A stretch of 48,862 nt of DNA from an uncultured Spirochaetales bacterium (GCA_949293335.1 CASFDA010000026.1:1-48862), one strand, 5' to 3'. Positions 1 to 48,704 are shown, numbered from the stretch's first letter. A program made the numbers and translations. Notes: generated by a model from the sequence alone, not told the origin.

Positions 1-132
1 ACAGTAACAAAGAGCGCTTACATATTAAGATCTTCTTAAAAACCTTGTACTCCAAGGTTCACTTCTTCATGCCCTTTTGTCAACCATCTTGAGTGGAAAT
101 CAATGCCTTCATTTTCTTCTTGACTTACGGGC
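1..132. other. Region downstream of truncated radC, no recognised gene
   Basis: This is where the missing C-terminal third of radC should lie. On the minus strand one frame stays open for roughly thirty codons after the break, but its sequence has none of the RadC motifs, so it looks like unrelated DNA joined to the radC remnant rather than a simple frameshift. No RNA gene or clear repeat is visible. Confidence 0.4.
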
Positions 133-18224: not shown

Positions 18225-18953
18225 CTAGCCAAGCTTGGACATCATGTTCTCATCAAGATTGTATCTCTTCTTGAGTTCTTCAGGCGAAAGGACATGATTG
18301 TCCATAGCGAGATCGACAGCCTTGACAGCCTCATCAACATCTCTGTTCTTCAGTGCCTTTATTATCTCATCATGAAGGACATAAGAAAGAACGCCAAGAA
18401 AGTCCGAACGTGTATAGATCCTGTAGACATCATGGAAACAGAAGTCGAGGATCTTGTCATACAGTATTGACTCGAGAACGTTATGGGTTATCTCGCCAAG
18501 CGCCCTGTGAAACTCAAGATCCAGGGCAACCTGCGTATCGATCGATAGGTTATTGTCCACAGCCTGCTTGAGGACATTGTTCTTGATAGAGAGGGAATCA
18601 ATCTCTTCGTCACTCGCCTTCTCGATTATCTTCCTGACAACCATATGCTCTATGTCGCCACGGAACTCTGCGAGTTCCTCATAGCTGTATGAACTCTTCT
18701 GGAATCGCAGGACAAAGGAATCGATAACAGATTCGGTCCCGTCATTTGCAAGATAAGTGCCATCCCCTCTCCTGATTTCAACGATGCCAGTTGCGGAAAG
18801 GACTTTCATAGCCTCCCTCACGCTACCTCTGCTGACACCTGACTGGGCACATAGCTCAGTTTCAGTCGGAAGTTTATCGCCACTTTTATACTTGCCGCTC
18901 CAAATAGCGTCATTAATAAGGTTTATGACTCTGTTGACTGCACTCTCTACCAT
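18225..18953 (-). CDS. GntR-family transcriptional regulator, FadR/FCD subfamily
   Basis: This 242-residue regulator has an N-terminal winged helix (about 5-72: KLPTETELCAQSGVSRGSVREAMK split over helices, then the wing RRGDGTYL) and a C-terminal all-helical FCD ligand domain (about 90-225). Metal or ligand-binding residues are visible in DLEFHRAL, LHDEIIKAL and DLAMDNHV. Its gene is last in the TTT operon, 8 bp after the isomerase, so it probably represses its own operon until the transported acid or a product binds. The palindrome at 23870-23890 is its likely operator. Confidence 0.88.
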   Translation of the reverse strand: MVESAVNRVINLINDAIWSGKYKSGDKLPTETELCAQSGVSRGSVREAMKVLSATGIVEIRRGDGTYLANDGTESVIDSFVLRFQKSSYSYEELAEFRGDIEHMVVRKIIEKASDEEIDSLSIKNNVLKQAVDNNLSIDTQVALDLEFHRALGEITHNVLESILYDKILDFCFHDVYRIYTRSDFLGVLSYVLHDEIIKALKNRDVDEAVKAVDLAMDNHVLSPEELKKRYNLDENMMSKLG

Positions 18954-18961
18954 TTTTCAAC

Positions 18962-19891
18962 TCAACCTAATGCCTTCTTGAAAGCAGTGTCCATCTTCTG
19001 GTATGCCGCTTTTGCGGAAATGAGCGGACTTACTCCAGGATATGGCCGCATCTCATACGAAAGGCCTGGCCTCTTGTCATATGATACATCCTTCTTCAGA
19101 TAGCCACAATCAAAGAGGGCCTTCAGGAACTCTGATGCCTCATCGACATCATATTCACCACCGCTGACGCCCAGCGCTGGATGCGTATGTCCATAGAATA
19201 TGCTCTTTTCGTCCCTGACTACTGCATTCCCCATATGTATATGGTTGATTCCAGCGATCAGAGAATTCCTCAGCACATCAAGAGGTTCCTCCTCCATCAG
19301 AGGGCAATGTGCAGTATCTACCATGAGATAGAGATTATCCAGACCCTCATCACGGAGTTTCTTGATATAGTTTGCAGCTTCCAGGCTAGGACCGAGAAGA
19401 AGCTTCTTGAATCTGTTCCTTTCTGCCGTTTCAAGAGCTATCTCGATTCCGAATTCCCTGCACTTTTCACTTACAGCCCTGAGATAACGAGAAAAGCTTT
19501 CATATTCCTTTTCTCTCTCAGAGGGCATATAGTCAGGTCCGGATGTGATCGCGACAATCCGGCTTTCAGCCTCTGCGGCGTATTCAATCTGTCTTTCCGC
19601 ATACCCTATTGCATTATCCACTTCGCTCTTGTCGAGTGAACACGGATTGAATTTGCCAGGGACCTGGAAATCGATCGTGAAGTTGTAGTTGATCCCTTTG
19701 CCCTCTTCACGTGCGATCTTGATCTCCTCTTTCCTCACGTTCTCATCATCAGGAAGAAAGGTCTCAAGCATCTCGTAATCCGGAAGCATTGCAGTCTTTG
19801 CGAATGCAGCCAGATGAGAAAGCGGTGAAGAAGTGCATTCAGGATAGAGGACAGGGACGCTGATTCCAAACTTAATGAAACGTTCAAGCAT
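18962..19891 (-). CDS. Sugar phosphate isomerase/epimerase family TIM-barrel protein
   Basis: The 309-residue product is of the AP-endonuclease-2/xylose-isomerase-like fold. Metal-binding and core pieces are visible as EIALETAERNRF, LYLMVDTAHCPLMEE, INHIHMGNAV and a His pair in GHTHPALG. Members isomerise, epimerise or dehydrate sugars and sugar acids; the substrate cannot be read from sequence. The ATG at 19891 has a GGAG seven bases upstream and overlaps the dehydrogenase by 8 bp, and the longer frame start has no support. The context with a hydroxyacid dehydrogenase suggests that it handles a keto- or hydroxy-acid sugar. Confidence 0.78.
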   Translation of the reverse strand: MLERFIKFGISVPVLYPECTSSPLSHLAAFAKTAMLPDYEMLETFLPDDENVRKEEIKIAREEGKGINYNFTIDFQVPGKFNPCSLDKSEVDNAIGYAERQIEYAAEAESRIVAITSGPDYMPSEREKEYESFSRYLRAVSEKCREFGIEIALETAERNRFKKLLLGPSLEAANYIKKLRDEGLDNLYLMVDTAHCPLMEEEPLDVLRNSLIAGINHIHMGNAVVRDEKSIFYGHTHPALGVSGGEYDVDEASEFLKALFDCGYLKKDVSYDKRPGLSYEMRPYPGVSPLISAKAAYQKMDTAFKKALG

Positions 19892-20861
19892 AGATGCTCC
19901 TATTGACGACATTCCTCGGAACAGTGTTCTCAATAAGAAGAGAGTTCACTCCTTCAAGAAGCTCACCAAGCATATTGAGCCTGATTTCCGCCATGTTCGT
20001 ACATATGTGTGGCGTGAGCACGACATTCTCAAACTCTGTCATCCTCTTGTTCAGATTAGGTTCATGCTCATGCACATCAAGGGCAGCCCCCCTGATGGCA
20101 TTTTCCTCAAGAGCCTTGATCAGTGCCTCCTCATCGACGATTGGTCCACGGGAGGCATTGACCAGGTAAGCAGTCTTCTTCATCAACGAGATCCTTCTTG
20201 AATCCATGAAGTGATGGTTCTCTTTTGAATAAGGAAGGTGAAGTGAGATCACATCAGCATCACGGATAAGGGAATCGGGATCGGTATAATAAATTGCCCC
20301 GATCTTCTTCTCCATCTCCTCGTCCCTGTACGGATCATAATAAAGAACCTGCATATCGAAAGCGGAGGCAAGATGTCCGAGCCTCTTGCCAATCCTGCCA
20401 AAACCAATGATCCCGAGTTTTTTTCCAGCAAGGCACATATCCCTCTCAAGAAGGAGATCCCCCTTGCAGTAAAGTGTCTTTCTGAGCGTACGGTCATATC
20501 TCACTACACTTCTTGCGATGCTCAGGATCAGGGCCATCGTCATCTCGGCTGTCGGAGCAACGACAGCATTCGGTGTATTGAGCACAGGGATTTTCCTCTC
20601 TGTGGCAGTCTTGACATCGATGTTATCGAACCCAGAACCCAGATTGCCTATGGCCTTTAATTTCACACCCTTGTCAATGATCTCCTTATCACACTTCGTA
20701 TCTGCAATGAATATGAACGCATCGCAGGATGGGATCAGCGAGAGTATCTCCTCCCTCGAAAAGGAGGAAAGATACTCTTTGGGTCTGACGATTTCAAATT
20801 TCTCAGCTATCTCAGGATATTTATCCAGAGGGAAATTGTGGGAAAGTCCAATCCTCATCAT
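19884..20861 (-). CDS. D-isomer-specific 2-hydroxyacid dehydrogenase
   Basis: This is an NAD(P)-dependent dehydrogenase of 325 residues acting on 2-hydroxy or 2-keto acids. The Rossmann motif is GIIGFGRIGKR (about 150-160), followed by the acidic residue in YYDPYRDEE that favours NAD over NADP. The catalytic Arg is in NASRGPIVDEEAL, the Glu in DVHEHEP and the His in TPHICTNMAE. It could reduce glyoxylate, hydroxypyruvate or a sugar-derived keto acid. It overlaps tctA by 4 bp (ATGA) and is co-transcribed with the transporter, pointing to oxidation or reduction of the imported acid. Confidence 0.9.
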   Translation of the reverse strand: MMRIGLSHNFPLDKYPEIAEKFEIVRPKEYLSSFSREEILSLIPSCDAFIFIADTKCDKEIIDKGVKLKAIGNLGSGFDNIDVKTATERKIPVLNTPNAVVAPTAEMTMALILSIARSVVRYDRTLRKTLYCKGDLLLERDMCLAGKKLGIIGFGRIGKRLGHLASAFDMQVLYYDPYRDEEMEKKIGAIYYTDPDSLIRDADVISLHLPYSKENHHFMDSRRISLMKKTAYLVNASRGPIVDEEALIKALEENAIRGAALDVHEHEPNLNKRMTEFENVVLTPHICTNMAEIRLNMLGELLEGVNSLLIENTVPRNVVNRSIYA

Positions 20862-22345
20862 TTTCCAGCCGCCTTCTTTTCTTTGTGGTAGTTTATCCTT
20901 CCCTTGATGATAGGATAGAAGAACGCCACAAGCGAAATGACGATGAATGCCGCCGCGATCGGGCGCTCAAAGAAGATTGCCCAGCTTCCATGACTCATGA
21001 CAAGGCTTCTTCTGAGGTTTCCTTCGGCCATAGGTCCGAGAATAAGTGCAAGGACTATCGGAGAAAGAGGGAAGCCACCCTTCACGAGGAAATATCCGAT
21101 AACTCCAGAGATGAACATGACGAGTATGTCGAGGAAGTTTCCGTTAACGGCATATGCACCGATGACACACATCATGACTATTACCGGATTGAGAATTGAC
21201 TTCGGGATCTGAACGATCTTAGTAAATGCCCTGATCCCGCTGAGACCTGCGATAAGCATCACGAGGTTGGCAAGCATGAAACCTACAAAGAGGCTGTTGA
21301 CGATGAAACCCTGCTCCACGAAGAGCATCGGTCCCGGTGTGAGGTTATGAACCATGAGCGCGCCAAGCATGACAGCTGTGTTCGCATCCCCAGGAATGCC
21401 GAGCGTGAGGAGAGGAATAAGTGCTCCACCTGTTGTTCCGTTGTTACTTGCCTCTGGAGCTGCAACCTCCTCCGGGATACCAGTTCCGAACATCTCAGGA
21501 CGCTTTGAAAGTCTCTTTTCCATATCATAGGAGACGAATGCAGAGATATCTCCGCCAGCTCCTGGGATAATTCCGATGAAAGTACCGGTAAGTCCTGCCC
21601 TGATGATGGTCGGGAAAATGAGCTTCAGGTCTTCTTTCGTCGGAAGGACACGACCGACCTTCGTTGTTATCTTGTTCCTGATGTGAAGTTCCTCAATCGA
21701 GACAAAACACTGGCTCATAGCAAAAAGTCCGACAAGGACAGGAATGAACGAAAGACCGTTCATGAGGAATACAGATCCGAACGCAAAACGGGTATATCCG
21801 GAAATGTTATCCATTCCGATAAGTGAAAGCAGAAGACCCATAGTTCCAGCCATGAGGCCCTTGATGATCGTCTTTCCGCTTATCGAGGAAATGATGGAAA
21901 TTCCGAAGAAAGCGAGTGCGAACTGTTCAGGTGCACTGAATTTGAGCGCAATCTGAGCAAGGCGAGGGGCGATAAGGATAAGACAGATACCACTTATGAT
22001 ACCGCCGCCAAAACTCGATACAGTCGAGATGCCGAGCGCACGGGCAGATTCGCCACGTTTTGTGAACTGATAACCTCCGATGACCGTAGCCGCAGCTGAC
22101 GGAGTACCGGGCGTGTTTATAAGGATAGCAGTGATCGAGCCACCATAGATTGCTCCACAGAACTCACCGATCAATACCATGAGACCCATCGTAGGTTCCA
22201 TGCGAAACGTGAGCGGCATCAGGAGGGCAATACCCATTGTAGATGTCAGTCCAGGCATGGCTCCGATCGCAATACCCGCAATGACACCACCAACAATGCT
22301 CAGAAGAACACTAGGAGAAAAAACATTCAATAATACTTCAACCAT
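20858..22345 (-). CDS. Tripartite tricarboxylate transporter, large membrane subunit TctA
   Basis: The 495-residue protein has about 11-12 membrane segments and is the channel-forming part of a TTT importer. Family signatures are GAMPGLTSTMGIALLMPLTF (near 28-47), YGGSITAILINTPGTP (about 68-83) and its mirrored second copy GIIPGAGGDISAFVSYD and LLTLGIPGDANTAVMLGALM. The ATG has GGAGG at 5 bp. It lies 9 bp after tctB. Substrates of the family are di- and tricarboxylates, aromatic acids and sugar acids. Confidence 0.93.
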   Translation of the reverse strand: MVEVLLNVFSPSVLLSIVGGVIAGIAIGAMPGLTSTMGIALLMPLTFRMEPTMGLMVLIGEFCGAIYGGSITAILINTPGTPSAAATVIGGYQFTKRGESARALGISTVSSFGGGIISGICLILIAPRLAQIALKFSAPEQFALAFFGISIISSISGKTIIKGLMAGTMGLLLSLIGMDNISGYTRFAFGSVFLMNGLSFIPVLVGLFAMSQCFVSIEELHIRNKITTKVGRVLPTKEDLKLIFPTIIRAGLTGTFIGIIPGAGGDISAFVSYDMEKRLSKRPEMFGTGIPEEVAAPEASNNGTTGGALIPLLTLGIPGDANTAVMLGALMVHNLTPGPMLFVEQGFIVNSLFVGFMLANLVMLIAGLSGIRAFTKIVQIPKSILNPVIVMMCVIGAYAVNGNFLDILVMFISGVIGYFLVKGGFPLSPIVLALILGPMAEGNLRRSLVMSHGSWAIFFERPIAAAFIVISLVAFFYPIIKGRINYHKEKKAAGK

Positions 22346-22354
22346 TTCATCCTC

Positions 22355-22801
22355 CTAGAAAAGCATGCCCTGAGGCAGTCGTACGGCGAGGACCATATAA
22401 AAGACAACGTAGATGGCCAGAGTCGTACCAAGGGCTGTGATGATGATCGGAAGAGGTCTTCTCTCCTCGAAATCAAGCATCAATGCAGCAATTGCAACCG
22501 GTGTGACATAGATGTAACTGATATATTCCATCAATATGATATATGCGGCCATGATGACTGCACAAATTACAACTTTCAAGAAATTATTTCTGAAAACAGG
22601 TTCATCGCTGTCCCTGTTTACTCCATTCTCCTTGATGATCAGGGAGATAGAAAGACCAATGATGATTATCGCAAGGATGGTTGGAAAGAATCCTGGACCT
22701 GGTGCGCCATTGCTTGCACCTGGGAAACTCCTTGCCGCGACAATTACATAAAGGCTGATTGCAATCATCACGGCTGAAATGACAATGCTTACTCTTCTCA
22801 T
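22355..22801 (-). CDS. Tripartite tricarboxylate transporter, small membrane subunit TctB
   Basis: This 148-residue protein has four predicted membrane helices (about 5-25, 37-55, 72-95 and 115-140) and the typical N-terminal segment ARSFPGASNGAPGPGFFPTI, followed by IIIGLSISL. It is the poorly conserved small subunit that pairs with TctA. The ATG at 22801 was chosen over a TTG eight codons upstream because AAGGG lies a suitable distance before it. A hairpin separates it from tctC. Confidence 0.88.
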   Translation of the reverse strand: MRRVSIVISAVMIAISLYVIVAARSFPGASNGAPGPGFFPTILAIIIIGLSISLIIKENGVNRDSDEPVFRNNFLKVVICAVIMAAYIILMEYISYIYVTPVAIAALMLDFEERRPLPIIITALGTTLAIYVVFYMVLAVRLPQGMLF

Positions 22802-22829
22802 ACTCGTCAAACCCTTTTTTGACAAAGGA

Positions 22830-22850
22830 CTGTTGCAGCCTGTGCAACAG
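22830..22850 (-). promoter_or_regulatory. Intercistronic hairpin between tctC and tctB
   Basis: CTGTTGCA (22830-22837) and TGCAACAG (22843-22850) form a perfect 8-bp stem with a 5-base loop. There is no U-run, so it is more likely an mRNA-stabilising or partially terminating hairpin that leaves tctC, the binding protein, more abundant than the membrane subunits. Confidence 0.6.
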
Positions 22851-22881
22851 CCCGACTTGAATACCTGACTTGAATCAGTAC

Positions 22882-23850
22882 TTAATTCTGCTTAAGGCCA
22901 AGGGCAACTGCCTGCTCGGCATAGATTGCCTCTTCCCTTGCCATCAGATCGTAAAGCTCAGGACCGCTCATATAAGCCTTGGAATAGCCTCTTTCGTTCA
23001 TGAACTGAGTTACAGCTTCATCGTCGAGAGCAGCCTGGAATGCCTCTGCGAGCCTGTCAACAACTTCCTGAGGAGTATTGAGAGGAACGCCAAAACCACG
23101 CCAGATTGTGAATACGAGGTTGTCATATCCATACTCTGCAGCTGTCGGAACGTCTGGAAGGTATGAAAGACGCTCTGGTGCAAGAACTGCGAGGACCTTT
23201 GCTGTTCCGGCCTTTACCTGAACCTCAACTTCCTGTGGTGTCACAGGTACTGCATCAACATGTCCGCCTGCAAGAGCGACAACTGCTGTACCACCACCTT
23301 CGAAAGGAACATGTGTGACTTCAATTCCAGCAGCCTGTGCGAATGCTGCAGCTACAAAGTGCCAGATTCCGCCGATTCCACTGTTTCCGAACGAAACCTC
23401 ACCAGGATGTGCCTTGCAGTATTCGATGAACTCAGGGAGTGTATCGTAAGGAGCATCTGCCCTGACTGTGATTGTGCCGTACTCAGAGTTGACGTTGCAA
23501 ACAGGAACGAAGCTCTGGTAAGAGAAGTTGACAGGAGAAACCTGAGGAACTGTCAGGAGCTCTGCAACAAGTGATGTGACGTTATAACCGTCAGGCCTCT
23601 GTGATGCACCCTGTGCAAAACCAATAGCACCACCGGCACCTGTCACGTTCTGTACTGTTACAGAAACTCCAAGATTTTCCTGAAGTGCAGGAGCCATAGC
23701 TCTGACAAGAAGGTCTGTTCCGCCACCTGCGGATACTGGTACTGTGATTGTTATTGGCTGCGATGGGAAGGCCGCATCAGAAGCAGCGTTTGCAAATGCT
23801 GCAGAAACAACAATCAGTCCAACAATTAGAACAGAAAGGAATCTTTTCAT
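22882..23850 (-). CDS. TTT solute-binding protein TctC (Bug family)
   Basis: This periplasmic receptor of 322 residues captures an organic acid for the TctAB pair. The signal peptide ends near AAFANA (about residue 20) without a lipobox cysteine. Typical features are the first strand FPSQPITITVPVSAGGGTD, the ligand loop and AGGAIGFAQGA, the PDGYN motif, GNSGIGGIWHF, THVPFEGGGTAVVALAGGHVD and LAPERLSYLPDVPTAAEYGY. The ATG at 23850 follows a GGAGG. It is the first gene of the operon and has its own promoter and operator. Confidence 0.92.
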   Translation of the reverse strand: MKRFLSVLIVGLIVVSAAFANAASDAAFPSQPITITVPVSAGGGTDLLVRAMAPALQENLGVSVTVQNVTGAGGAIGFAQGASQRPDGYNVTSLVAELLTVPQVSPVNFSYQSFVPVCNVNSEYGTITVRADAPYDTLPEFIEYCKAHPGEVSFGNSGIGGIWHFVAAAFAQAAGIEVTHVPFEGGGTAVVALAGGHVDAVPVTPQEVEVQVKAGTAKVLAVLAPERLSYLPDVPTAAEYGYDNLVFTIWRGFGVPLNTPQEVVDRLAEAFQAALDDEAVTQFMNERGYSKAYMSGPELYDLMAREEAIYAEQAVALGLKQN

Positions 23851-23869
23851 GAAATTAAACCTCCAAAAC

Positions 23870-23890
23870 ATCAAACATCAGACGTTTGAT
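23870..23890. promoter_or_regulatory. Palindromic operator of the first TTT operon
   Basis: The two arms ATCAAACATC (23870-23879) and GACGTTTGAT (23881-23890) are inverted copies around a central A, with one mismatch in 10 positions. The size and symmetry suit a dimeric GntR/FCD protein, and the site lies just after the predicted transcription start, where binding would block RNA polymerase. The regulator encoded at 18225-18953 is the natural candidate. Confidence 0.65.
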
Positions 23891-32418: not shown

Positions 32419-32661
32419 GAATATAATAAAATTTAAAAGAAATATTTAGTAAAAGTGAAATTTTTAAAACAATGTAATTAAACAAGAAATATATGCTCTG
32501 AGCCTATTTTTTTATTTAAAGATCTGCTTGAGACACATTGAATTACAAAACAGATAAAATTTTACTTGTTATACTTGTAGCACAAATCTTGTATTAATCA
32601 AAAAGAAGTAAAATAAGTACACCAATTTAAATATTTATTTTTTCTTTTTCCTTCTCTTGAA
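32419..32661. other. AT-rich stretch of the uraA-TRAP intergenic region
   Basis: The 404-bp gap between uraA and dctP is strongly AT-rich. Apart from the inverted repeat at 32396-32418 and the uraA terminator, no gene, tRNA or clear structured RNA is visible. Confidence 0.5.
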
Positions 32662-40868: not shown

Positions 40869-41282
40869 TTATTTCTTCTCTTCCTGACTTTTCAGATATG
40901 CCTCAACTGCCGCATCTGCCCTCTTCTTGAGGCCTTCCCCAGATATGGCAGGAGAAAATATGCAGAGCACCTTGAGTTTTTCATTTCCCGTATTCTTTAT
41001 CTGATGCAGCTCGCCAGGAAGGGCACAGATCATCGAATCGGGAACGAAATCGAACTCCTCCCCGTTTATAGAGGCTACTCCATGTCCGGAGATGCAGTAC
41101 ATCGCCTCGGTCGAATCCTCATGCAGATGCTCATCCACCTCCGCCCCCGGCTCCCACTCCGTCATGTGGACAGAGAAATCGATATGCCTCTTCTCAAAAT
41201 CTGTCGTCATGATAGGTGTCATCGCCCTTGAAAAGGGATAAGGCACTTTTATAGAGTTCTTCTCATCATATTTGAAATACAT
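40869..41282 (-). CDS. Small cupin protein A (paralogue of 42137-42544)
   Basis: The 137-residue protein is a single-domain cupin. Motif 1 is PGAEVDEHLHEDSTEAMYCISG, in which His-x-His and Glu are metal ligands; motif 2 is PDSMICALPGELHQIKNTG with the last His. A charged helix LKKRADAAVEAYLKSQEEKK ends it. Such cupins linearise or isomerise sugar acids (KdgF-like), bind ligands or act as dioxygenases; the sequence does not choose. It is last in the tctB-tctA operon and about two thirds identical by eye to the other small cupin. Confidence 0.85.
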   Translation of the reverse strand: MYFKYDEKNSIKVPYPFSRAMTPIMTTDFEKRHIDFSVHMTEWEPGAEVDEHLHEDSTEAMYCISGHGVASINGEEFDFVPDSMICALPGELHQIKNTGNEKLKVLCIFSPAISGEGLKKRADAAVEAYLKSQEEKK

Positions 41283-41304
41283 AAATTTACCTCCTTATGA
41301 CATT

Positions 41305-42135
41305 CTATTTTAGCCCATAAGCAGACAAAAGCGGAAGAAGATAGCGTGCACAGTCCTCTGCTGCCTTCATCTCATCAGGTACAGGAAGGACCTCGATCGA
41401 GGCATCATACTGATACTTTTTGTCAGAAAGGACAGACATCACTCTCCGCCAGTCTATCTTTCCCTTCCCAGGGACTTTGCGTTCTGTATCCGCAAAGTGG
41501 AGATGCCTTGCATTGGACATGTGCATCTCCATGGCCTTATACATGTCCTCCTCTTCCAGTTCCATCTGGGAAAAGTCATACATCAGGTGCAAAGCGGGAG
41601 ATCCAACGCTGTTGATGAGGTTCTCGGCCTCATCAAGCGTATTCAAGAAGTCCATCATCGGGCGGGCAACTGTCTCGATCATGAGATCGACATTCTTCCT
41701 CTCCGCATACTTTGACAAGACAGAAAGGGCAGAGATCAGCTTTTCTCTCGTGGTCGTCTCCCCTCCCCCTTCCTTTATCGTCCCTCTTAGTATCCCGATA
41801 TTGACCGGAATGGCCCAGATGGAAGCGAAATCAATTATCTCCTTTGTCCGCATGATCGAATTGATGCGGACAAAATCATCAGGGGAAGTGAGGGAAAGGC
41901 CAAGTTCGCCCCTGACCCTTCCTGTGTTGATCGCAACAAGCGAGAAGCCATGCTCCGAGATAGTTCTCTCAAGTTCCTCCCTGTCAATGGAAAGCGGGTC
42001 TGTAGTGATCAGCTCGAGAGAATCATATCCATAGTCCTTCAGACGCGGAAGAGCATAACTCAAGTCACTCTGAATCGCGAGAAGCCCGGGGACTCTCCTC
42101 ACCTCAGGGGTGAGGATATTCACAGCAAGATGCAT
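41305..42135 (-). CDS. Sugar phosphate isomerase/epimerase family TIM-barrel protein
   Basis: The 276-residue product belongs to the xylose-isomerase-like/AP-endonuclease-2 group. Metal and core residues are visible in NVDLMIETVARP (Glu), LHLMYDFSQME (Asp), ARHLHFADTERK (His, Asp) and ASIEVLPVP (Glu), which is the usual Glu-Asp-His-Glu set. It is only distantly like the isomerase at 18962-19891. Lying between two cupins in a TTT operon, it probably isomerises the imported sugar acid or its derivative. Confidence 0.83.
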   Translation of the reverse strand: MHLAVNILTPEVRRVPGLLAIQSDLSYALPRLKDYGYDSLELITTDPLSIDREELERTISEHGFSLVAINTGRVRGELGLSLTSPDDFVRINSIMRTKEIIDFASIWAIPVNIGILRGTIKEGGGETTTREKLISALSVLSKYAERKNVDLMIETVARPMMDFLNTLDEAENLINSVGSPALHLMYDFSQMELEEEDMYKAMEMHMSNARHLHFADTERKVPGKGKIDWRRVMSVLSDKKYQYDASIEVLPVPDEMKAAEDCARYLLPLLSAYGLK

Positions 42136-42136
42136 A

Positions 42137-42544
42137 TCACTTCTTCCCTGTCTTCAGATAGTTCTCATACGCATCCTCTGCCCTCTTGCGGAGAATCTGG
42201 GCAGATGTCGGAGGAGAGAATATGCAGAGGACCTTCAGCTTCTCAGTTCCTGTGTTCTTTATCCAGTGCCGCTCATTCGGAAGAGCACAGATCATGGAAT
42301 CCGGAACAAGATCGAACACCTCATCCCCTATCGAGGCCTTCCCGCTTCCGGAAAGGCAGTACATCGCCTCAGTCGCGTCTGTATGGATATGTTCATCGAC
42401 CTCCGCTCCCGGCTCCCACTGGGCCATATGTATTGAGAACGGAATATCTCCGCTGGCAGTGTCACTGGTCATGAATGGCGTCATTATCCTCGAATAAGGA
42501 AACGGAACGTGGATTTCATTCTTTTCTTCATACTTGAAATACAT
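42137..42544 (-). CDS. Small cupin protein B (paralogue of 40869-41282)
   Basis: The 135-residue single cupin has EVDEHIHTDATEAMYCLSG as motif 1 and PDSMICALPNERHWIKNTG as motif 2. All expected metal ligands (two His and a Glu, plus the late His) are present. Both small cupins begin MYFKY-EKN and end in the same charged helix, so they arose by duplication around the isomerase gene, which starts 1 bp after this one stops. They may form a heteromer or have split ligand preferences. Confidence 0.85.
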   Translation of the reverse strand: MYFKYEEKNEIHVPFPYSRIMTPFMTSDTASGDIPFSIHMAQWEPGAEVDEHIHTDATEAMYCLSGSGKASIGDEVFDLVPDSMICALPNERHWIKNTGTEKLKVLCIFSPPTSAQILRKRAEDAYENYLKTGKK

Positions 42545-42559
42545 AAAAACCTCCTCTTT

Positions 42560-44044
42560 TCATGCTTTCTTTCTCGCCTTGATCTTGTCCCATGCGAACT
42601 CCTTGAAAAGCAAGAGAACAAGAATAGCGATAAGTACAATGCTTACAGGGCGGGTGAAGAACGGAGAGAAATCTCCCTGTCCTGCGAGGACAGCCCTGCG
42701 GAAATTAGAATCGACAAGATCAGATCCAACTACTACGCCGATGATCATCGGGGCAATCGGGAATCCATTGCGCTTCATGATCAGACCAATGATTCCGAAT
42801 ACGAACATGATCGGAATATCTGCCATGCGGCTGGAGTTTCCGAAACTTCCCATCGCGCAGAGTGCGATGACAAACGAAAGGATGATCGGAAGTGGCGCAG
42901 AGAGAAGACGGACAAGAGCACGTCCGGCAAATGTTCCAATGAACAAGAATACGAATCCTGCAAGGATGAACGAGAGCGAGAGGATCCAGATGAAAGATGG
43001 GTTGTTGTTCATGAACCCAGCACCAGTCTGTACGCCCTGTACAGTAAGGACTGAAAGGACGACAGCAGTAACGCCATCACCAGGAACTCCGAGGGAAAGG
43101 AGAGGCGCGTAAGTGCCTGGTACACAGGCATTGTTTGCAGCCTCACTTCCGATAAGGCCTTCTGACGCTCCGGTCCCGAAAAGCTCCGGATGCTTGCTTG
43201 AGCGCTGTGCCTGATTGTAACCGACCCAGGATGCTATGTTCGATCCGACTCCCGGAATGACTCCGATGATGAACCCGAGGATAGAGACCTTGAGTGCTGT
43301 CCACTTGTACTTCCAGATCTCACTGAACTGGAAAAGCTTGCTCGATTTGATTCCAAGTGGCTTTTCACCATAACCGGCAAGAGACTCGAATACTTCGGAC
43401 ATACCGTAAAGGCCGACCATCGCAGGAATCAGACCTATCCCATCGCGCAGTGCCCTGATGCCGAATGTGAAGCGCAGCGATCCAGCTCCGTAAATCGGGT
43501 CTGTACCGACAAAGGCGACGATCAGTCCGAGGCAGGCTGCGAATATTCCTTTAAGGAAGTTCACGCGGGAAAGCTGGGCGCAGATGACGATTGCGAAGAC
43601 AGAGAACCAGAACATCTCCCATGAACCGAAAAGGAGTGCAAGACGAAGGGCAAACGGCATGATGATTATCAGGAGGATAGCTCCGATTGTGTTGCCCCAG
43701 AAAGATGCCGCGACATTGATTGCAAGGGCTTTTTCACCTTCTCCCCTATTTGCCATCGGATACCCTTCGAGTGCAGTTGCAGCCGAGGCTGGCGTTCCTG
43801 GTATGTTCAGTACGGTCGCGGTGATGCTGCCTCCATACGTCGAACCGACCTGAGTGGCCGCGAGGAACACGATCGCATGAATGAAGCCCATCGTGTATGC
43901 AAACGTGGCAACAAGTGCGACAGTTGTTGTAGATGAGATGCCAGGAAGCGCACCGCCTATGATTCCGACTCCTACTCCGAGAACGATCATCATGAGAACT
44001 TCAGGGGTCAGAAGTTGTGTGATTACTTCAATTGCCAAATCCAT
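42560..44044 (-). CDS. Tripartite tricarboxylate transporter, large membrane subunit TctA (second system)
   Basis: The 494-residue membrane protein has signatures GGALPGISSTTTVALVATFAY, YGGSITATVLNIPGTPASA, GVIPGVGSNIASWVGYN and LLSLGVPGDGVTAVVLS. It clearly belongs to the family but differs from the TctA at 20858-22345, so the two transporters probably import different acids. It follows tctB by 11 bp and precedes cupin B by 15 bp. Its binding protein is not adjacent; it is encoded 3.5 kb away. Confidence 0.93.
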   Translation of the reverse strand: MDLAIEVITQLLTPEVLMMIVLGVGVGIIGGALPGISSTTTVALVATFAYTMGFIHAIVFLAATQVGSTYGGSITATVLNIPGTPASAATALEGYPMANRGEGEKALAINVAASFWGNTIGAILLIIIMPFALRLALLFGSWEMFWFSVFAIVICAQLSRVNFLKGIFAACLGLIVAFVGTDPIYGAGSLRFTFGIRALRDGIGLIPAMVGLYGMSEVFESLAGYGEKPLGIKSSKLFQFSEIWKYKWTALKVSILGFIIGVIPGVGSNIASWVGYNQAQRSSKHPELFGTGASEGLIGSEAANNACVPGTYAPLLSLGVPGDGVTAVVLSVLTVQGVQTGAGFMNNNPSFIWILSLSFILAGFVFLFIGTFAGRALVRLLSAPLPIILSFVIALCAMGSFGNSSRMADIPIMFVFGIIGLIMKRNGFPIAPMIIGVVVGSDLVDSNFRRAVLAGQGDFSPFFTRPVSIVLIAILVLLLFKEFAWDKIKARKKA

Positions 44045-44055
44045 TTCCTACCTCC

Positions 44056-44532
44056 TCATAGCTGAACACCAAGCGCGAGCGCGAATACCAGATAAAGGAT
44101 CACAGTGAGAATGGCGCTGTAGATAACAGCCTTTATCTTGCTTATTCCCTTCACGTAGCAGATAGTGCAGAAGAGCATCACAATGAACGAGCTGGGATAG
44201 AAACCCAGGAACGGGATGCCCAGAGCGATATATACCAGTACGATACCGATCGCCTGAAAGATGTGGATCCACTCCTTGTTGCCAAGTACGTCCTTCAGGG
44301 AAGAAACCAGCTTGCTTACAGGAACAAGGCCCTTCGATCTGATGAGACTGCGCACAGTCATGACTACACTGATTATTATCATCAGCCCTGTGACTATGTA
44401 TGGCATCAGGCGCGGGGAGCCGAGTCCGGGAGCACTTTCCCTGATCGAAAAGCAGGACGCAAACAGAAACAGTGATAGGACAAGCATGCCAATGCTTACT
44501 ACTGTCTCGCGTTCTTCTTTTTTGAGTTGCAT
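44056..44532 (-). CDS. Tripartite tricarboxylate transporter, small membrane subunit TctB (second system)
   Basis: The 158 residues include four membrane helices and the motif FSIRESAPGLGSPRLMPYIVTG near the N-terminus. A basic cytoplasmic loop (SLIRSKGLVPVSKLVSSL) follows the second helix. The ATG at 44532 lies directly after a GGAGGAGGAAAG ribosome-binding region. It heads the five-gene minus-strand operon. Confidence 0.88.
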   Translation of the reverse strand: MQLKKEERETVVSIGMLVLSLFLFASCFSIRESAPGLGSPRLMPYIVTGLMIIISVVMTVRSLIRSKGLVPVSKLVSSLKDVLGNKEWIHIFQAIGIVLVYIALGIPFLGFYPSSFIVMLFCTICYVKGISKIKAVIYSAILTVILYLVFALALGVQL

Positions 44533-44617
44533 CTTTCCTCCTCCTTTTTTTCCTTTCCAGAGCCCTGACAAATTTAGCTTTACAATACCAGAGCTACATG
44601 TTACAAATTATTTTAGG

Positions 44618-44632
44618 ACTTGTTCTACAAGT
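44618..44632. promoter_or_regulatory. GntR operator ACTTGTTCTACAAGT, copy 1
   Basis: This 15-bp site has perfect 6-bp arms around TCT. It lies at the predicted start site of the tctB promoter and in the divergent gap to the lactonase. The identical sequence occurs upstream of tctC at 48655-48669. TTGT-N3-ACAA is a common binding form for FCD-type GntR repressors. Confidence 0.8.
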
Positions 44633-44640
44633 TCAAATGT

Positions 44641-44669
44641 AGTGTAGCATTGGCCTAATTAGCTGTCAA
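44641..44669 (-). promoter_or_regulatory. Promoter of the second TTT operon (tctB)
   Basis: On the minus strand a consensus TTGACA (44664-44669) and TACACT (44641-44646) are 17 bp apart. Transcription would start near 44634, at the edge of the operator. Confidence 0.7.
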
Positions 44670-44699
44670 CAAATGTTTTCAGCTGGCCGAGGAGGAATG

Positions 44700-45833
44700 A
44701 TGGACAAAGGAAAAAGAGGAAAGAGGATCGTATTCGCAGGAACCTACAGTGAGGAGATCCTGCTTGGAACCGGACAGCTCCTTGATTCCAAGGGTGAAGG
44801 GATATACGTATTCGAGATGGACAGGGAAAGCGGAAAACTTACGCTCCTTTACAAAGCCATCGGAGAACCGAATCCCACATATGTCGCTCTCGACAAGAGT
44901 CAGAGATATCTCTACTCGACCAATGAACTCAAGACGTTCAGAGGGCAGAAATCAGGGGCTGTGACATCGTTCAAGTTCGATCGCGAAACAGGAAGACTGA
45001 GCGTCATGAACCGTGTCCTTGTCGGTGGAACAGATGCCGTGCACTGTGCTCTCAACAAAGACTCGACCTATCTGCTTTCTGCGAACTTCATGAGCGGAAG
45101 CGTAACTGTACTTCCTATAAACAAGGAAGACGGTACTATAGAAAGCCCTTCGTGCTTCATGCAGCACTACGGGACAGGGCCTAACCCGATAAGGCAGACA
45201 AACGCACATGCCCACTGCTTCATGCTTGACAATGAGGAAAAGAGGGCATTCATCCCGGATCTGGGTGCAGACAAGGTGTTCATCTACAAAGTCAACTGGG
45301 AGAACGGACACCTCTCTGAAAACGAAATACCATATGTATCGCTGGCACCAGGGGAGGGTCCGAGGCACTGTGTGTTCGACAAGAAAGGGACGCATTTCTA
45401 TGTGATCAACGAAATGGGAAACAGCATATATGTATATGACTATGACAAAGAGAGCGGCAATCTCATCGAGAAGCAGAGGATATCGACCGTTCCTGAGGAT
45501 TTCAAAGGGGAAAGCACATGTTCTGCCATCAAGATCCATCCGGACGGGAAGTTCCTCTATGGCTCGAACAGGGGACATGACAGCCTTGCGACATACAGGA
45601 TCGACGAGGAAAGCGGACTGCTGAGCCTCGTGTCAATCCAGAAGACGAATGGAAACACTCCAAGGGATTTCGAGTTCACCCCGGAAGGCGATTATGTGGT
45701 CGTCGGGAATCAGGATTCAAATTCGATTGTGACATTCAGCGTCAACAAGGAAACAGGAGAGATAAGGGAAACCTCGCGACTGGATGACATTTTCACCGTA
45801 ACCTGCGTGAAAATTTACGATCTTGAGAATTAA
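44700..45833 (+). CDS. Lactonase family protein (seven-bladed beta-propeller, Pgl/YkgB-like)
   Basis: The 377-residue protein is of the 6-phosphogluconolactonase (Lactonase, PF10282) type. It opens with FAGTYSEE, and repeated blades contain YVFEMDRESGKLTLL, SFKFDRETGRLSV, VYDYDKESGNL and YRIDEESGLLSLV. Typical catalytic-face residues lie in NAHAHCFMLDN, GEGPRHCVFDKKGTHFYVINE and FLYGSNRGHDSLATYRID. It would hydrolyse a sugar lactone to the acid. The ATG pair at 44697/44700 follows GGAGG; the upstream ATG at 44673 has no such site. It is co-transcribed with the GntR gene 32 bp downstream. No pentose phosphate gene is near, so a dedicated catabolic role is likelier than Pgl duty. Confidence 0.87.
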   Translation: MDKGKRGKRIVFAGTYSEEILLGTGQLLDSKGEGIYVFEMDRESGKLTLLYKAIGEPNPTYVALDKSQRYLYSTNELKTFRGQKSGAVTSFKFDRETGRLSVMNRVLVGGTDAVHCALNKDSTYLLSANFMSGSVTVLPINKEDGTIESPSCFMQHYGTGPNPIRQTNAHAHCFMLDNEEKRAFIPDLGADKVFIYKVNWENGHLSENEIPYVSLAPGEGPRHCVFDKKGTHFYVINEMGNSIYVYDYDKESGNLIEKQRISTVPEDFKGESTCSAIKIHPDGKFLYGSNRGHDSLATYRIDEESGLLSLVSIQKTNGNTPRDFEFTPEGDYVVVGNQDSNSIVTFSVNKETGEIRETSRLDDIFTVTCVKIYDLEN

Positions 45834-45865
45834 TGTTAAAATGTTCCCCGAATAAGGAATATTAG

Positions 45866-46576
45866 ATGCAAGGCAATACAGAGAACTCAGCTGTCTATGA
45901 TGAGCTGGTGAAGCTCATCACAGATGGTGTCTTCCCGGAGGGGAGCAAGATCCCCTCCGAAAATGAACTGCACGTGCGTTTCGGTGTGAGCAGGAACACG
46001 ATCCGATTGGTCCTGAACAGGCTCAGGACAATGGGAATGATCGAAACAAGGAGGGGAGATGGCAGCTACGTCAAGAAGATGGGTGCGAATCTCCTCCTCG
46101 CATCTGAGGTGCCCACGCTTCTTTATCAGAAGCACGATTTCATCGACATACTTGAATTCAGGAAAGGTGTGGAGATCGAATCTGTGAAGATTGCCTCGAA
46201 AAGGCGCTCTGACGATGACATACTCCAGATGAAAGGCGCGCTTTTGCAGATGAAGAGGAATATAATGGTCATGGACAAGTTCTTCATTGCCGATGACCAG
46301 ATGCACATGCTCTTTGCGAAGGCCACAGGAAACGAGATGTTCACATCCATGCTCGAGATCATCCAGAGCATCCTGACAGAGGATATGAAAAGTTTCTTGC
46401 TCAATCAGGGGACTGACATCGACTCATATTTCTATCATGAGAGCATCCTCTCATGCATTGAGAACAAGAAACCAGAGGAAGCTGGTTTCATGATGGACAG
46501 GCATCTTTCTGCAGTCATAGAGAGGATAAGGAAATATTACAAGGGAGACACGCCGAAAGTATCTCTGGAGACGTGA
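45866..46576 (+). CDS. GntR-family transcriptional regulator, FCD subfamily (second system)
   Basis: This 236-residue regulator has a winged helix (about 5-70: KIPSENELHVRFGVSRNTIR, wing RRGDGSYVKK) and an FCD domain with likely ligand-site residues in DDQMHMLFAKATGN, FYHESILSCI and MMDRHLSAV. It is the natural binder of ACTTGTTCTACAAGT in this module and would sense the imported acid. A Shine-Dalgarno AAGGA precedes the ATG. Its last 40 bp are overlapped by the convergent NTPase gene. Confidence 0.88.
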   Translation: MQGNTENSAVYDELVKLITDGVFPEGSKIPSENELHVRFGVSRNTIRLVLNRLRTMGMIETRRGDGSYVKKMGANLLLASEVPTLLYQKHDFIDILEFRKGVEIESVKIASKRRSDDDILQMKGALLQMKRNIMVMDKFFIADDQMHMLFAKATGNEMFTSMLEIIQSILTEDMKSFLLNQGTDIDSYFYHESILSCIENKKPEEAGFMMDRHLSAVIERIRKYYKGDTPKVSLET

Positions 46577-47001
46577 ATTATCTCGGCATCCTTTATTGAG
46601 AAACAATCCTCGACAAGAGTAAGGAAAGCGGACCTCACGGATATCGTCAGGTCCATTTTATTTTCTTTTATGATCCTATGTAATGCGGGAGAAAAGCCTC
46701 CCCCACTTACTTCCAGACGCCCTACTTCGTCTATGAATATATGTCCGCATTCAAGACTTGAAAGATACTGGTTCGCATAATCAAAAAGCTCCTGCCTGTA
46801 ATGATAGCGACCTATCATGAAGCTGCTCTCAAGATCCTCGCTCATCAGGAGTTCTTCCTTTCCGCTCTTTACATCATAAAGGTAATATCCATTTCCCCTA
46901 TGCCTGCTTATGAACCCAAAAGCCATGGGATCTGAAGAAGAGAGCTTTTCCATCAGCGTGCTTTTCCCCTCTCCCCTTTCTCCTGTCACTATCCTGATCA
47001 T
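46537..47001 (-). CDS. THEP1-type nucleoside triphosphatase
   Basis: The 154-residue P-loop NTPase has Walker A GERGEGKST near the N-terminus and a Walker B region HIFIDEVGRLEVSGGGF, which together mark the THEP1/NTPase_1 family. Members hydrolyse ATP and GTP slowly and have no settled cellular role. The ATG at 47001 gives the normal start MIRIVTGERGEGKST; the longer frame adds unrelated residues and reaches into the upstream terminator. It is convergent with, and overlaps, the GntR gene by 40 bp. No link to the transporter module is evident. Confidence 0.83.
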   Translation of the reverse strand: MIRIVTGERGEGKSTLMEKLSSSDPMAFGFISRHRGNGYYLYDVKSGKEELLMSEDLESSFMIGRYHYRQELFDYANQYLSSLECGHIFIDEVGRLEVSGGGFSPALHRIIKENKMDLTISVRSAFLTLVEDCFSIKDAEIIHVSRDTFGVSPL

Positions 47002-47015
47002 ACGGACATGATAGA

Positions 47016-47056
47016 GAAAAAATAAAAGCGGGCGAAGGGGGTATGTCCTTGCCCGC
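47016..47056 (-). terminator. Intrinsic terminator after the tctC-cupin operon
   Basis: GCGGGC (47028-47033) pairs with GCCCGC (47051-47056), extended inwards by CCTT/AAGG after a bulge. In the minus direction the stem is followed by TTTTATTTTTTC. It lies 25 bp after the cupin stop codon. Confidence 0.88.
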
Positions 47057-47080
47057 AAAAAGAGAAACTCAAGGAGGTCT

Positions 47081-47521
47081 TTACTTCATATGGAAGTTTG
47101 TAGACTTCGCTTCAATGGGAGGTTCAGTGTAATACTTTCCAGTCTCCTCGCCGCTACCGACAGAGTAGACAGTTATGCTCTCAATAGGGATATCACCTGT
47201 GTTTACGAGCTTGTGTATGACGCCGCGTGGAACATAGATGAAAGTACCTGGCTTGAAGTAATACTTCTTCTCATCCTCTGTGCCATAGCCGATGATGTAG
47301 TACCCCTCTCCCTTTATGAAGTACTGGCCGAGAGCTGAATTGATGTGCACATGTGCCCTGGAGATGCTCCCTACTGGAATCACACAATAGTCAACTACGA
47401 AGTCGCTTCCACAGGTTTCCCTGCTGATGGCAAAGAAGTGTTCCATCTGTACTTCATACTGCTCATCTCCCTTAACTTTCTCGTCATACATGCTTACGAT
47501 GTACGCTTCATGATGTGGCAT
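47081..47521 (-). CDS. Cupin-domain protein C
   Basis: The 146-residue cupin is unlike the two small ones. Motif 1 is AHVHINSALGQYFIKGEG (His-x-His), and motif 2 is PGTFIYVPRGVIHKLVNTG with its late His. The usual motif 1 Glu appears to be replaced by Gln in GQYF. Two cysteines (ETCGSDF, VDYCVIP) precede the barrel. It is co-transcribed with tctC (41-bp gap) under the same operator as the tctB operon, so it belongs to the second TTT module. It may process the substrate or serve as a binding protein. Confidence 0.83.
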   Translation of the reverse strand: MPHHEAYIVSMYDEKVKGDEQYEVQMEHFFAISRETCGSDFVVDYCVIPVGSISRAHVHINSALGQYFIKGEGYYIIGYGTEDEKKYYFKPGTFIYVPRGVIHKLVNTGDIPIESITVYSVGSGEETGKYYTEPPIEAKSTNFHMK

Positions 47522-47562
47522 TTTCTTTCCTCCTGTATTCTGTAATTTGCCTTATTTGATCA

Positions 47563-48609
47563 TTACGGGCGCGGTACACCTACATCCTGAGGATCACGAT
47601 ATGTGTATCCGCGGTCATAAAGCATATATGAATATGCCTTTGTCGATTCCTCGAACAAAGCCTTGGCCTCATCGCCGGAGAGTACGTCGTCGACACTGAC
47701 TCCATTGTTGTTCAGGAGATTCACGAAATCCTCGGAATTTACAGCATAGAGAAGCGCTTCAGTAAGTTTTTCCTCAATGTTCTTCGGAGTACCCTTCTTC
47801 ACGGCAAAGCCTCTCCAGCCACCTGCGAGTGAAATTGAATCGGCAAGCTCTGGCACACTGTCGAGAACAGATGGAACTTCCCCGTATCCATTGAGATTGA
47901 ATGGTTTGTCGCTCATGATCGCGAGAGGCCTGACAAGACCACTGAGGATAGCCTCTGAGGATTCCTGATAAATTCCGCATGTCGACCAGTCAACTTCTCC
48001 ACGGGAGACTGCAAGCGTAGTTTCCTTTCCAGATGAATATGGAACGTATGTGACAGGCTTTGCGCCCACTGCATCAGAGAGCATGATGGCAGGGAAGTGC
48101 CATGTGGAGCCAACTCCAGCAGTGCTTGCTGTCGTAGGATTCTCCTGCAAATATGCGATGAAATCCTCCATCGTCTTGATCGGGGAATTCGCATTCACGA
48201 GAACAGCCGGATTATGGGTGACAAACGGCATCACGAGCATATCAAGATCCTGATAAGTCACATCCGAGTTCTCGCTCGATGGATATACGCAGATCGAAGA
48301 TGAGCAGGCAAAGATGCTATATCCATCTGCTTTGTTCCTTGCAATGTAATCTGCCGCAACACCACTTGAAGCACCTGGCATGTTCTCGACAATGACCTGA
48401 CAGCCTAGGTACTCGCCCATTGCTGGGGCAATCGTACGGGCCATGGTATCTATTCCGCCGCCGGGAGCCATGCCTACGATGATGGTTATAGTCTTGTTAG
48501 GTACCCATTCTGCATTTTCATCAACACTTTCTGCATCTGAACCACCCCCTGCAAAGAGAAGAGAGGCCATGGCAATCAAAACCAGCAGGACAGATAAAAG
48601 TTTCCTCAT
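47563..48609 (-). CDS. TTT solute-binding protein TctC (second system)
   Basis: This periplasmic receptor of 348 residues has a signal peptide ending SLLFAGGGSD with no lipobox Cys. Family signs are NKTITIIVGMAPGGGIDTMAR, NMPGASSGVAADYIA, the KADGYS motif, TAGVGSTWHFPAIML, TYVPYSSGKETTLAVSRGEVD and GGWRGFAVKKGTPKNIEEKL. The ATG at 48609 follows GGAGGAAGG. The gene is 3.5 kb from its presumed TctAB partner, but an identical operator links them. Confidence 0.9.
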   Translation of the reverse strand: MRKLLSVLLVLIAMASLLFAGGGSDAESVDENAEWVPNKTITIIVGMAPGGGIDTMARTIAPAMGEYLGCQVIVENMPGASSGVAADYIARNKADGYSIFACSSSICVYPSSENSDVTYQDLDMLVMPFVTHNPAVLVNANSPIKTMEDFIAYLQENPTTASTAGVGSTWHFPAIMLSDAVGAKPVTYVPYSSGKETTLAVSRGEVDWSTCGIYQESSEAILSGLVRPLAIMSDKPFNLNGYGEVPSVLDSVPELADSISLAGGWRGFAVKKGTPKNIEEKLTEALLYAVNSEDFVNLLNNNGVSVDDVLSGDEAKALFEESTKAYSYMLYDRGYTYRDPQDVGVPRP

Positions 48610-48625
48610 TTTTTCCCTTCCTCCT

Positions 48626-48636
48626 TTGTAGAACAA
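48626..48636. promoter_or_regulatory. GntR operator core TTGTAGAACAA, copy 3
   Basis: TTGTAGAACAA is exactly the reverse complement of the 11-bp core of the ACTTGTTCTACAAGT operators. It lies in the tctC leader, about 25 bp after the other copy, overlapping the ribosome-binding region. Two spaced sites may allow cooperative binding or a roadblock. Confidence 0.65.
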
Positions 48637-48654
48637 TTACACTATTTTTATTTC

Positions 48655-48669
48655 ACTTGTTCTACAAGT
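48655..48669. promoter_or_regulatory. GntR operator ACTTGTTCTACAAGT, copy 2
   Basis: Identical in all 15 bases to the site at 44618-44632, and in the same relation to its promoter, directly after the -10 box. Confidence 0.8.
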
Positions 48670-48676
48670 TGGTTTT

Positions 48677-48704
48677 ATTATATCATGCCTCCATACGCTG
48701 TCAA
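48677..48704 (-). promoter_or_regulatory. Promoter of tctC (second TTT system)
   Basis: On the minus strand, TTGACA (48699-48704) and TATAAT (48677-48682), both full consensus, are 16 bp apart. Transcription would begin near 48670, immediately before the operator. Confidence 0.8.

Follow-up and report, generated by a model that had tools for sequence, protein, structure and literature searches.

Background

The described systems closest to the locus analyzed here couple a tripartite tricarboxylate transporter (TTT) to transcription regulators of the GntR family. In the GguR/TctABC galactarate-glucarate regulon of Halomonas, a TTT whose predicted substrates are sugar acids is linked to a regulator of the GntR family, and in one strain the regulon is not confined to a single operon (PMC5507952); the alginate locus of Vibrio sp. 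C42 carries a TTT, GntR regulators, and a gene for KdgF (PMC13390454). TctC proteins encoded away from TctAB have also been described (PMC5812351). DgoR, the D-galactonate repressor of Escherichia coli from the GntR/FadR group, is an FCD repressor with a metal-containing ligand pocket and inverted-repeat operators that overlap the promoter (PMC7674646). Here we describe a split TTT module, located between positions 40869 and 48704 of a 48,862-nucleotide stretch of DNA (the window) from an uncultured Spirochaetales bacterium (GCA_949293335.1, CASFDA010000026.1:1-48862). An earlier note on this DNA had proposed, as its core claim, that a single GntR/FCD operator joins the tctB operon, the lactonase-gntR pair, and the tctC-cupin transcript, and this claim is strongly supported by the uniqueness of the sites in the genome, their fit to the FadR consensus, and the relatives of the locus. 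It appears highly likely that the two gene groups, together with the lactonase and gntR genes, form one local regulon that would import a carboxylated sugar or its lactone and begin to process it.

The differences from the known systems are substantial. The Halomonas regulon includes a full set of catabolic enzymes, whereas the spirochaete module encodes a lactonase, an epimerase-like enzyme, and cupins, with tctC apart from tctAB. The Vibrio locus encodes lyases and the full route through 4-deoxy-L-erythro-5-hexoseulose uronate (DEH) and 2-keto-3-deoxygluconate (KDG), whereas the cupins of the spirochaete show no KdgF match among solved structures and are accompanied by the lactonase. DgoR, unlike the regulator described here, has a slightly different set of metal ligands, targets the dgo pathway, and is not associated with a TTT. 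The enzyme set is unusual, but the claim of the earlier note that the gene combination is unusual is weakened because TTT with GntR regulators for sugar acids or uronates have already been reported (PMC5507952, PMC13390454); very likely, the regulon is a previously undescribed instance of this known arrangement.

One operator at two promoters

The exact 15-mer ACTTGTTCTACAAGT occurs twice in the window, each time just past a good promoter, as had been claimed: the operator starts 8 nt after the -10 element of tctB and 7 nt after that of tctC (Table 1). The proposed third core copy, TTGTAGAACAA, is present as well and matches the central 11 bases of both full-length sites exactly. A search of the whole 1.92-Mb genome yields two exact matches to ACTTGTNNNACAAGT, both at the tctB and tctC promoters, compared with about 0.14 expected from base composition, and with up to three mismatches allowed, 10 matches are seen in the window versus about one in window shuffles. 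Because only 23 of the 76 flanking bases are identical between the two operators, the shared 15-mer is not a remnant of a copied promoter. When one mismatch is allowed, the genome search adds two sites, one upstream of a tripartite ATP-independent periplasmic (TRAP) transporter operon on the same contig and one within a coding frame; one-mismatch sites outside the module were discarded where they lay inside reading frames.

The arrangement of transcripts can be refined from the sequence. The corrected start codons are ATG at 44532 for tctB and ATG at 48609 for tctC, and the lactonase gene probably starts at 44697 or 44700 rather than at 44673. A strong terminator 3' of the cupin C gene implies that tctC-cupC is probably a transcript of its own.

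The regulator and its predicted mode of action

The gntR product contains a GntR winged helix (PF00392, E 3e-17) and an FCD domain (PF07729, E 1e-16), both above the cut-off. Operators of the FadR subfamily follow the consensus TKGT-N3-ACMA, with protein-DNA correlations at positions 28 and 39 of the helix-turn-helix (HTH) region (PMC4494728), and the site TTGT-TCT-ACAA at both promoters fits this consensus. The regulator has Asn at both HTH positions; Asn at 39 prefers A/T flanking the operator centre, and Arg at 28 avoids A/T at the K position (PMC4494728). The operator has A/T at the central flanking positions, as Asn39 predicts, and Arg28 is absent from the regulator. The four FCD ligands (Table 1) are spaced 4/44/22, matching the metal site N144/H148/H192/H214 of Ps5454 (PMC7674646), a similarity that suits a carboxylate effector. 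The best reading of the protein, judged from its sequence, is a metal-dependent FCD repressor that would block transcription starts until a carboxylate effector arrives. An identification as NanR was rejected, the score being 105.7 bits against the NCBIfam cut-off of 260; the NanR operator is a direct repeat, whereas the operator here is a palindrome.

In the proposed mechanism, a GntR/FCD dimer would bind ACTTGTnnnACAAGT, and at tctB and tctC, the bound repressor would prevent initiation, given that an operator starting 7-8 nt past the -10 element covers the transcription start. At tctC, the second core lies 31 bp, or three helical turns, downstream, such that two dimers could sit on the same face of the DNA and act jointly. 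The repressor would come off the DNA once the FCD metal coordinates a hydroxy-acid effector, whereupon the import subunits, the cupins, the epimerase-like enzyme, and the lactonase would be produced together.

The same operator in other spirochaetes

A search for relatives of the regulator over 395 genomes of the class identified proteins in G132, G353, and G221 (loci L097-L099) that are 38-40% identical to the GntR protein of the window and have the same recognition helix; an earlier GntR search over 40 relatives had found only matches of about 30%, with no common gene content. Among 43 regulators compared, the combination of E27-N28 with SRNT and RG is confined to four, namely, the window protein and the regulators of L097-L099, and these are grouped together in the tree of the 43 (support 90/86). 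The earlier note had suggested scanning related genomes for the palindrome, whose absence from related promoters would have spoken against the proposal; the palindrome is, in fact, found in other spirochaetes, next to lactonase and cupin genes and a relative of gntR.

The L097-L099 loci resemble the module in having the nearest regulator, the same operator, a PF10282 lactonase (35% identity over the full length), a cupin, and a divergent gene for a triosephosphate isomerase (TIM)-barrel isomerase. They differ in having an ATP-binding cassette (ABC) sugar importer instead of the TTT, along with two zinc dehydrogenases and, in the fully annotated L097, a 3HCDH-type dehydrogenase and a PfkB kinase. 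The intergenic region of L097 contains the perfect palindromes ACTTGTTCCACAAGT and ACTTGTAGTACAAGT and two half-degenerate copies, and those of L098 and L099 contain four looser copies each; most of these copies share the centre AGA/TCT, and the operator follows 7 nt after the end of a candidate -10 element upstream of the isomerase gene, much as at tctC and tctB. In the 4.4-Mb genome G132, the exact palindrome occurs twice, both times in the gntR-lactonase locus, and all eight of the other exact or one-mismatch matches that were checked in G132, G353, and G221 lie inside reading frames.

In four further genomes of one genus (L102, L103, L104, L109), a GntR gene with 31% relatedness adjoins tctC-tctB-tctA, and CTTGTCT(C/T)ACAATTT occurs at the gntR start, a single match of a kind that is not above chance.

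Alternative explanations and points of weakness

That the two palindromes are coincidental and reflect no common regulation is hardly credible. Equal-arm repeated palindromes do arise in 9% of simulated windows, but identity over a whole 15-mer palindrome appeared in only 7 of 1200, and coincidence would have to extend to the same placement at two promoters, the third core, and the recurrence in other genomes. It is very improbable that the palindromes instead act in RNA, as a six-base-pair 5' hairpin that protects or tunes the mRNA without a protein operator. The sites do lie at the very 5' end of each transcript and are capable of folding, but the fold is weak (-3.1 kcal/mol for the 15-mer); complementarity would suffice for a hairpin, yet the letters of the arms are identical across the two operons and other genomes and fit the known GntR/FadR consensus, and L097 and L098 have several copies side by side, some without a promoter candidate before them. 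It is decidedly unlikely, too, that another cellular regulator, for example, a different GntR protein, binds the sites while the linked one works elsewhere. The genome encodes at least four further GntR-type proteins, one of them in the window at 18225-18953, and the motifs of the FadR subfamily resemble each other; however, the N28/SRNT recognition residues are in none of the other regulators of this genome that were examined, the operator is linked to gntR both in the window and in L097-L099, and there are no exact sites elsewhere in the genome.

Several observations weigh against the reading of the locus as one regulon under the linked GntR protein. The sole candidate promoter on the plus strand for the lactonase-gntR pair is weak (TTTACA-17-TACAAA), with none comparable to those of tctB and tctC. 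The regulator has Gly at position 59 of the HTH, a residue statistically associated with G/C at the K position (PMC4494728), which does not agree with the operator here. The window regulator forms a long branch, and its grouping with the L097-L099 regulators is under the strict support threshold; those regulators are just moderately similar to it, the importer there is ABC rather than TTT, the isomerase is no orthologue of the window isomerase, and G353 and G221 are near-copies, so that the three genomes represent two independent lineages. The genome searches with TctA found no close orthologue of the TTT module. Finally, a kinase, a dehydratase, and an aldolase are absent among the module genes, which encode no complete catabolic pathway.

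Gene content and the substrate

Table 1. Features of the split TTT module and its surroundings (window positions)
Feature	Position	Strand	Remarks
Operator 1, ACTTGTTCTACAAGT	44618..44632	n/a	in the tctB-lactonase intergenic region; spans roughly +2 to +16 of the tctB transcript
Operator 2, ACTTGTTCTACAAGT	48655..48669	n/a	start of the tctC-cupC transcript
Third core, TTGTAGAACAA	48626..48636	n/a	centre 31 bp from operator 2; touches the tctC ribosome-binding site
Possible weaker operator, ACTTGTAGCACAAAT	32573..32587	n/a	about 250 bp upstream of the probable dctP start, TRAP operon; membership uncertain
tctB promoter, TTGACA-17-TACACT	44641..44669	-	10/12 consensus match
tctC promoter, TTGACA-16-TATAAT	48677..48704	-	12/12; TG before -10
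Intrinsic terminator after cupin C	47028..47056	-	stem-loop about -17.6 kcal/mol, then T run
tctB, small TTT membrane subunit	44056..44532	-	PF07331 above cut-off
tctA, large TTT membrane subunit	42560..44044	-	PF01970 above cut-off
tctC, TTT solute-binding protein	47563..48609	-	PF03401 above cut-off
Cupin A	40869..41282	-	67% identity to cupin B
Cupin B	42137..42544	-	PF07883; metal-binding motif intact (H52, H54, E59, H93)
Cupin C (cupC)	47081..47521	-	PF07883; second gene of the tctC transcript
TIM-barrel epimerase/isomerase	41305..42135	-	PF01261; nearest solved relative IolO TM0416
Lactonase, seven-bladed	44697..45833	+	PF10282, E 5e-108; divergent from tctB
gntR, GntR/FCD regulator	45866..46576	+	N28, R38, N39 in HTH; metal ligands D143/H147/H191/H213
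P-loop nucleoside triphosphatase (NTPase)	46537..47001	-	PF03266; between gntR and cupC; probably resident, outside the module

The TTT set is complete, with TctA, TctB, and TctC all encoded and tctC on a separate transcript (Table 1). The nearest solved relative of the TIM-barrel enzyme is IolO, the 5-keto-L-gluconate epimerase of Thermotoga maritima (E 4e-30). Residues aligning with the metal and acid/base positions expected for this family are conserved in the window enzyme, which differs in having Gln in place of the His of the DTFHM stretch; identity with IolO itself was rejected (189.9 bits versus an NCBIfam equivalog cut-off of 300). The solved structures nearest to the lactonase are 6-phosphogluconolactonase-like and gluconolactonase proteins; the 6-phosphogluconolactonase equivalog was rejected (157.6 bits versus 370), and the PF10282 fold family fits. 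All three cupins belong to Cupin_2, and cupins A and B both retain the H-x-H, E, and H metal motif. They match general cupin models, with no KdgF chain among the matches to solved structures; the AlphaFold models of cupins B and C are of low quality (predicted local distance difference test scores of 49 and 33).

The sugar acid proposed as the substrate in the earlier note is plausible from these gene families. A tentative and rather doubtful proposal is that the module serves an undescribed route: the TTT would take up a sugar acid or lactone, the PF10282 enzyme would open it, and the IolO-like enzyme, aided by the metal cupins, would rearrange it, spirochaetes having recombined a GntR-operator-lactonase-cupin core with either TTT or ABC importers. 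The regulon is also compatible with unsaturated uronates from polysaccharide breakdown as the substrate, with the cupins acting like KdgF, although this is unlikely: the Vibrio TTT with GntR and KdgF genes does import alginate oligosaccharides (PMC13390454), and the cupins have the metal motif, but KdgF is not matched among solved structures, genes for a lyase, a DEH reductase, a KDG kinase, and Eda are absent beside the module, and the lactonase is foreign to that pathway.

Elsewhere in the same genome (L053, C31:38000-57900), a paralogous TTT, with TctA at about 66-69% identity, is accompanied by a cupin, an old-yellow-type enzyme, a zinc alcohol dehydrogenase (ADH), a short-chain dehydrogenase/reductase, an IlvD/EDD dehydratase, an FAD protein, and a LacI regulator, and an operon of this type is also present in a Clostridiales metagenome-assembled genome (MAG; L063). 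The juxtaposition of the paralogous TTT with the IlvD/EDD-type dehydratase and oxidoreductases favours sugar acids for this TTT branch, by association only. Another hint that the cupin A family goes with acid-sugar modules comes from a different genome (L114, G263), where a relative of cupin A adjoins a gene for a PdxA-type dehydrogenase and a different set of TTT genes.

When 84,980 species genomes were scanned with TctA, only two relatives, at 67%, were recovered, both from Clostridia MAGs; the neighbourhood could be read in one of them and contains dehydratase and dehydrogenase genes, without such an operator. TctA searches of 139 genomes of the family, 395 of the class, and 391 of Clostridia yielded no further close relative, and nothing was found in the viral contigs searched.

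How the transporter came to be split

In G001, a member of the same genus, the gene order is MATE, AMP ligase, GGGtGRT, NifU-like, cupin A (76%), and NTPase (43%), without the module. In the window, the genes for cupin A and the NTPase, adjacent in G001, are separated by the block from the isomerase gene to gntR, and this accounts for the split transporter, with tctC-cupC located beyond. The comparison is compatible with one insertion, two insertions, or loss in G001. Because cupin A occupies the same place in the sister species that lacks the module, it probably belongs to the older neighbourhood, and it is probably a resident gene that was drawn into the operon.

Other features of the genome

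The one-mismatch operator upstream of the TRAP operon is included in ACTTGTTATACTTGTAGCACAAAT (32564-32587), and a promoter was sought beside it and not found. The window contains a second TTT module at 18225-23874, with tctC-tctB-tctA, a 2-hydroxyacid dehydrogenase, a TIM-barrel isomerase-like gene, and another GntR/FCD regulator. Another contig of this genome (L073, C5:12000-22000) carries an operon of two transketolase halves, an iron ADH, a LarA-like protein, and an IolO-like epimerase. The sequence CTTGTACTCCAAG is located some 40 bases into several contigs (window positions 44-56; C12, C20, C31, C33), which suggests a repeat common to contig ends.

Implications

Little is known about the carbon sources of this spirochaete lineage, for which the observations presented here supply a regulon that can be tested and whose operator is defined. 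Across the loci compared, the importer is swapped, but the operator remains with a regulator, a lactonase, and a cupin of one kind, and comparison of such loci can be used to find the substrate.

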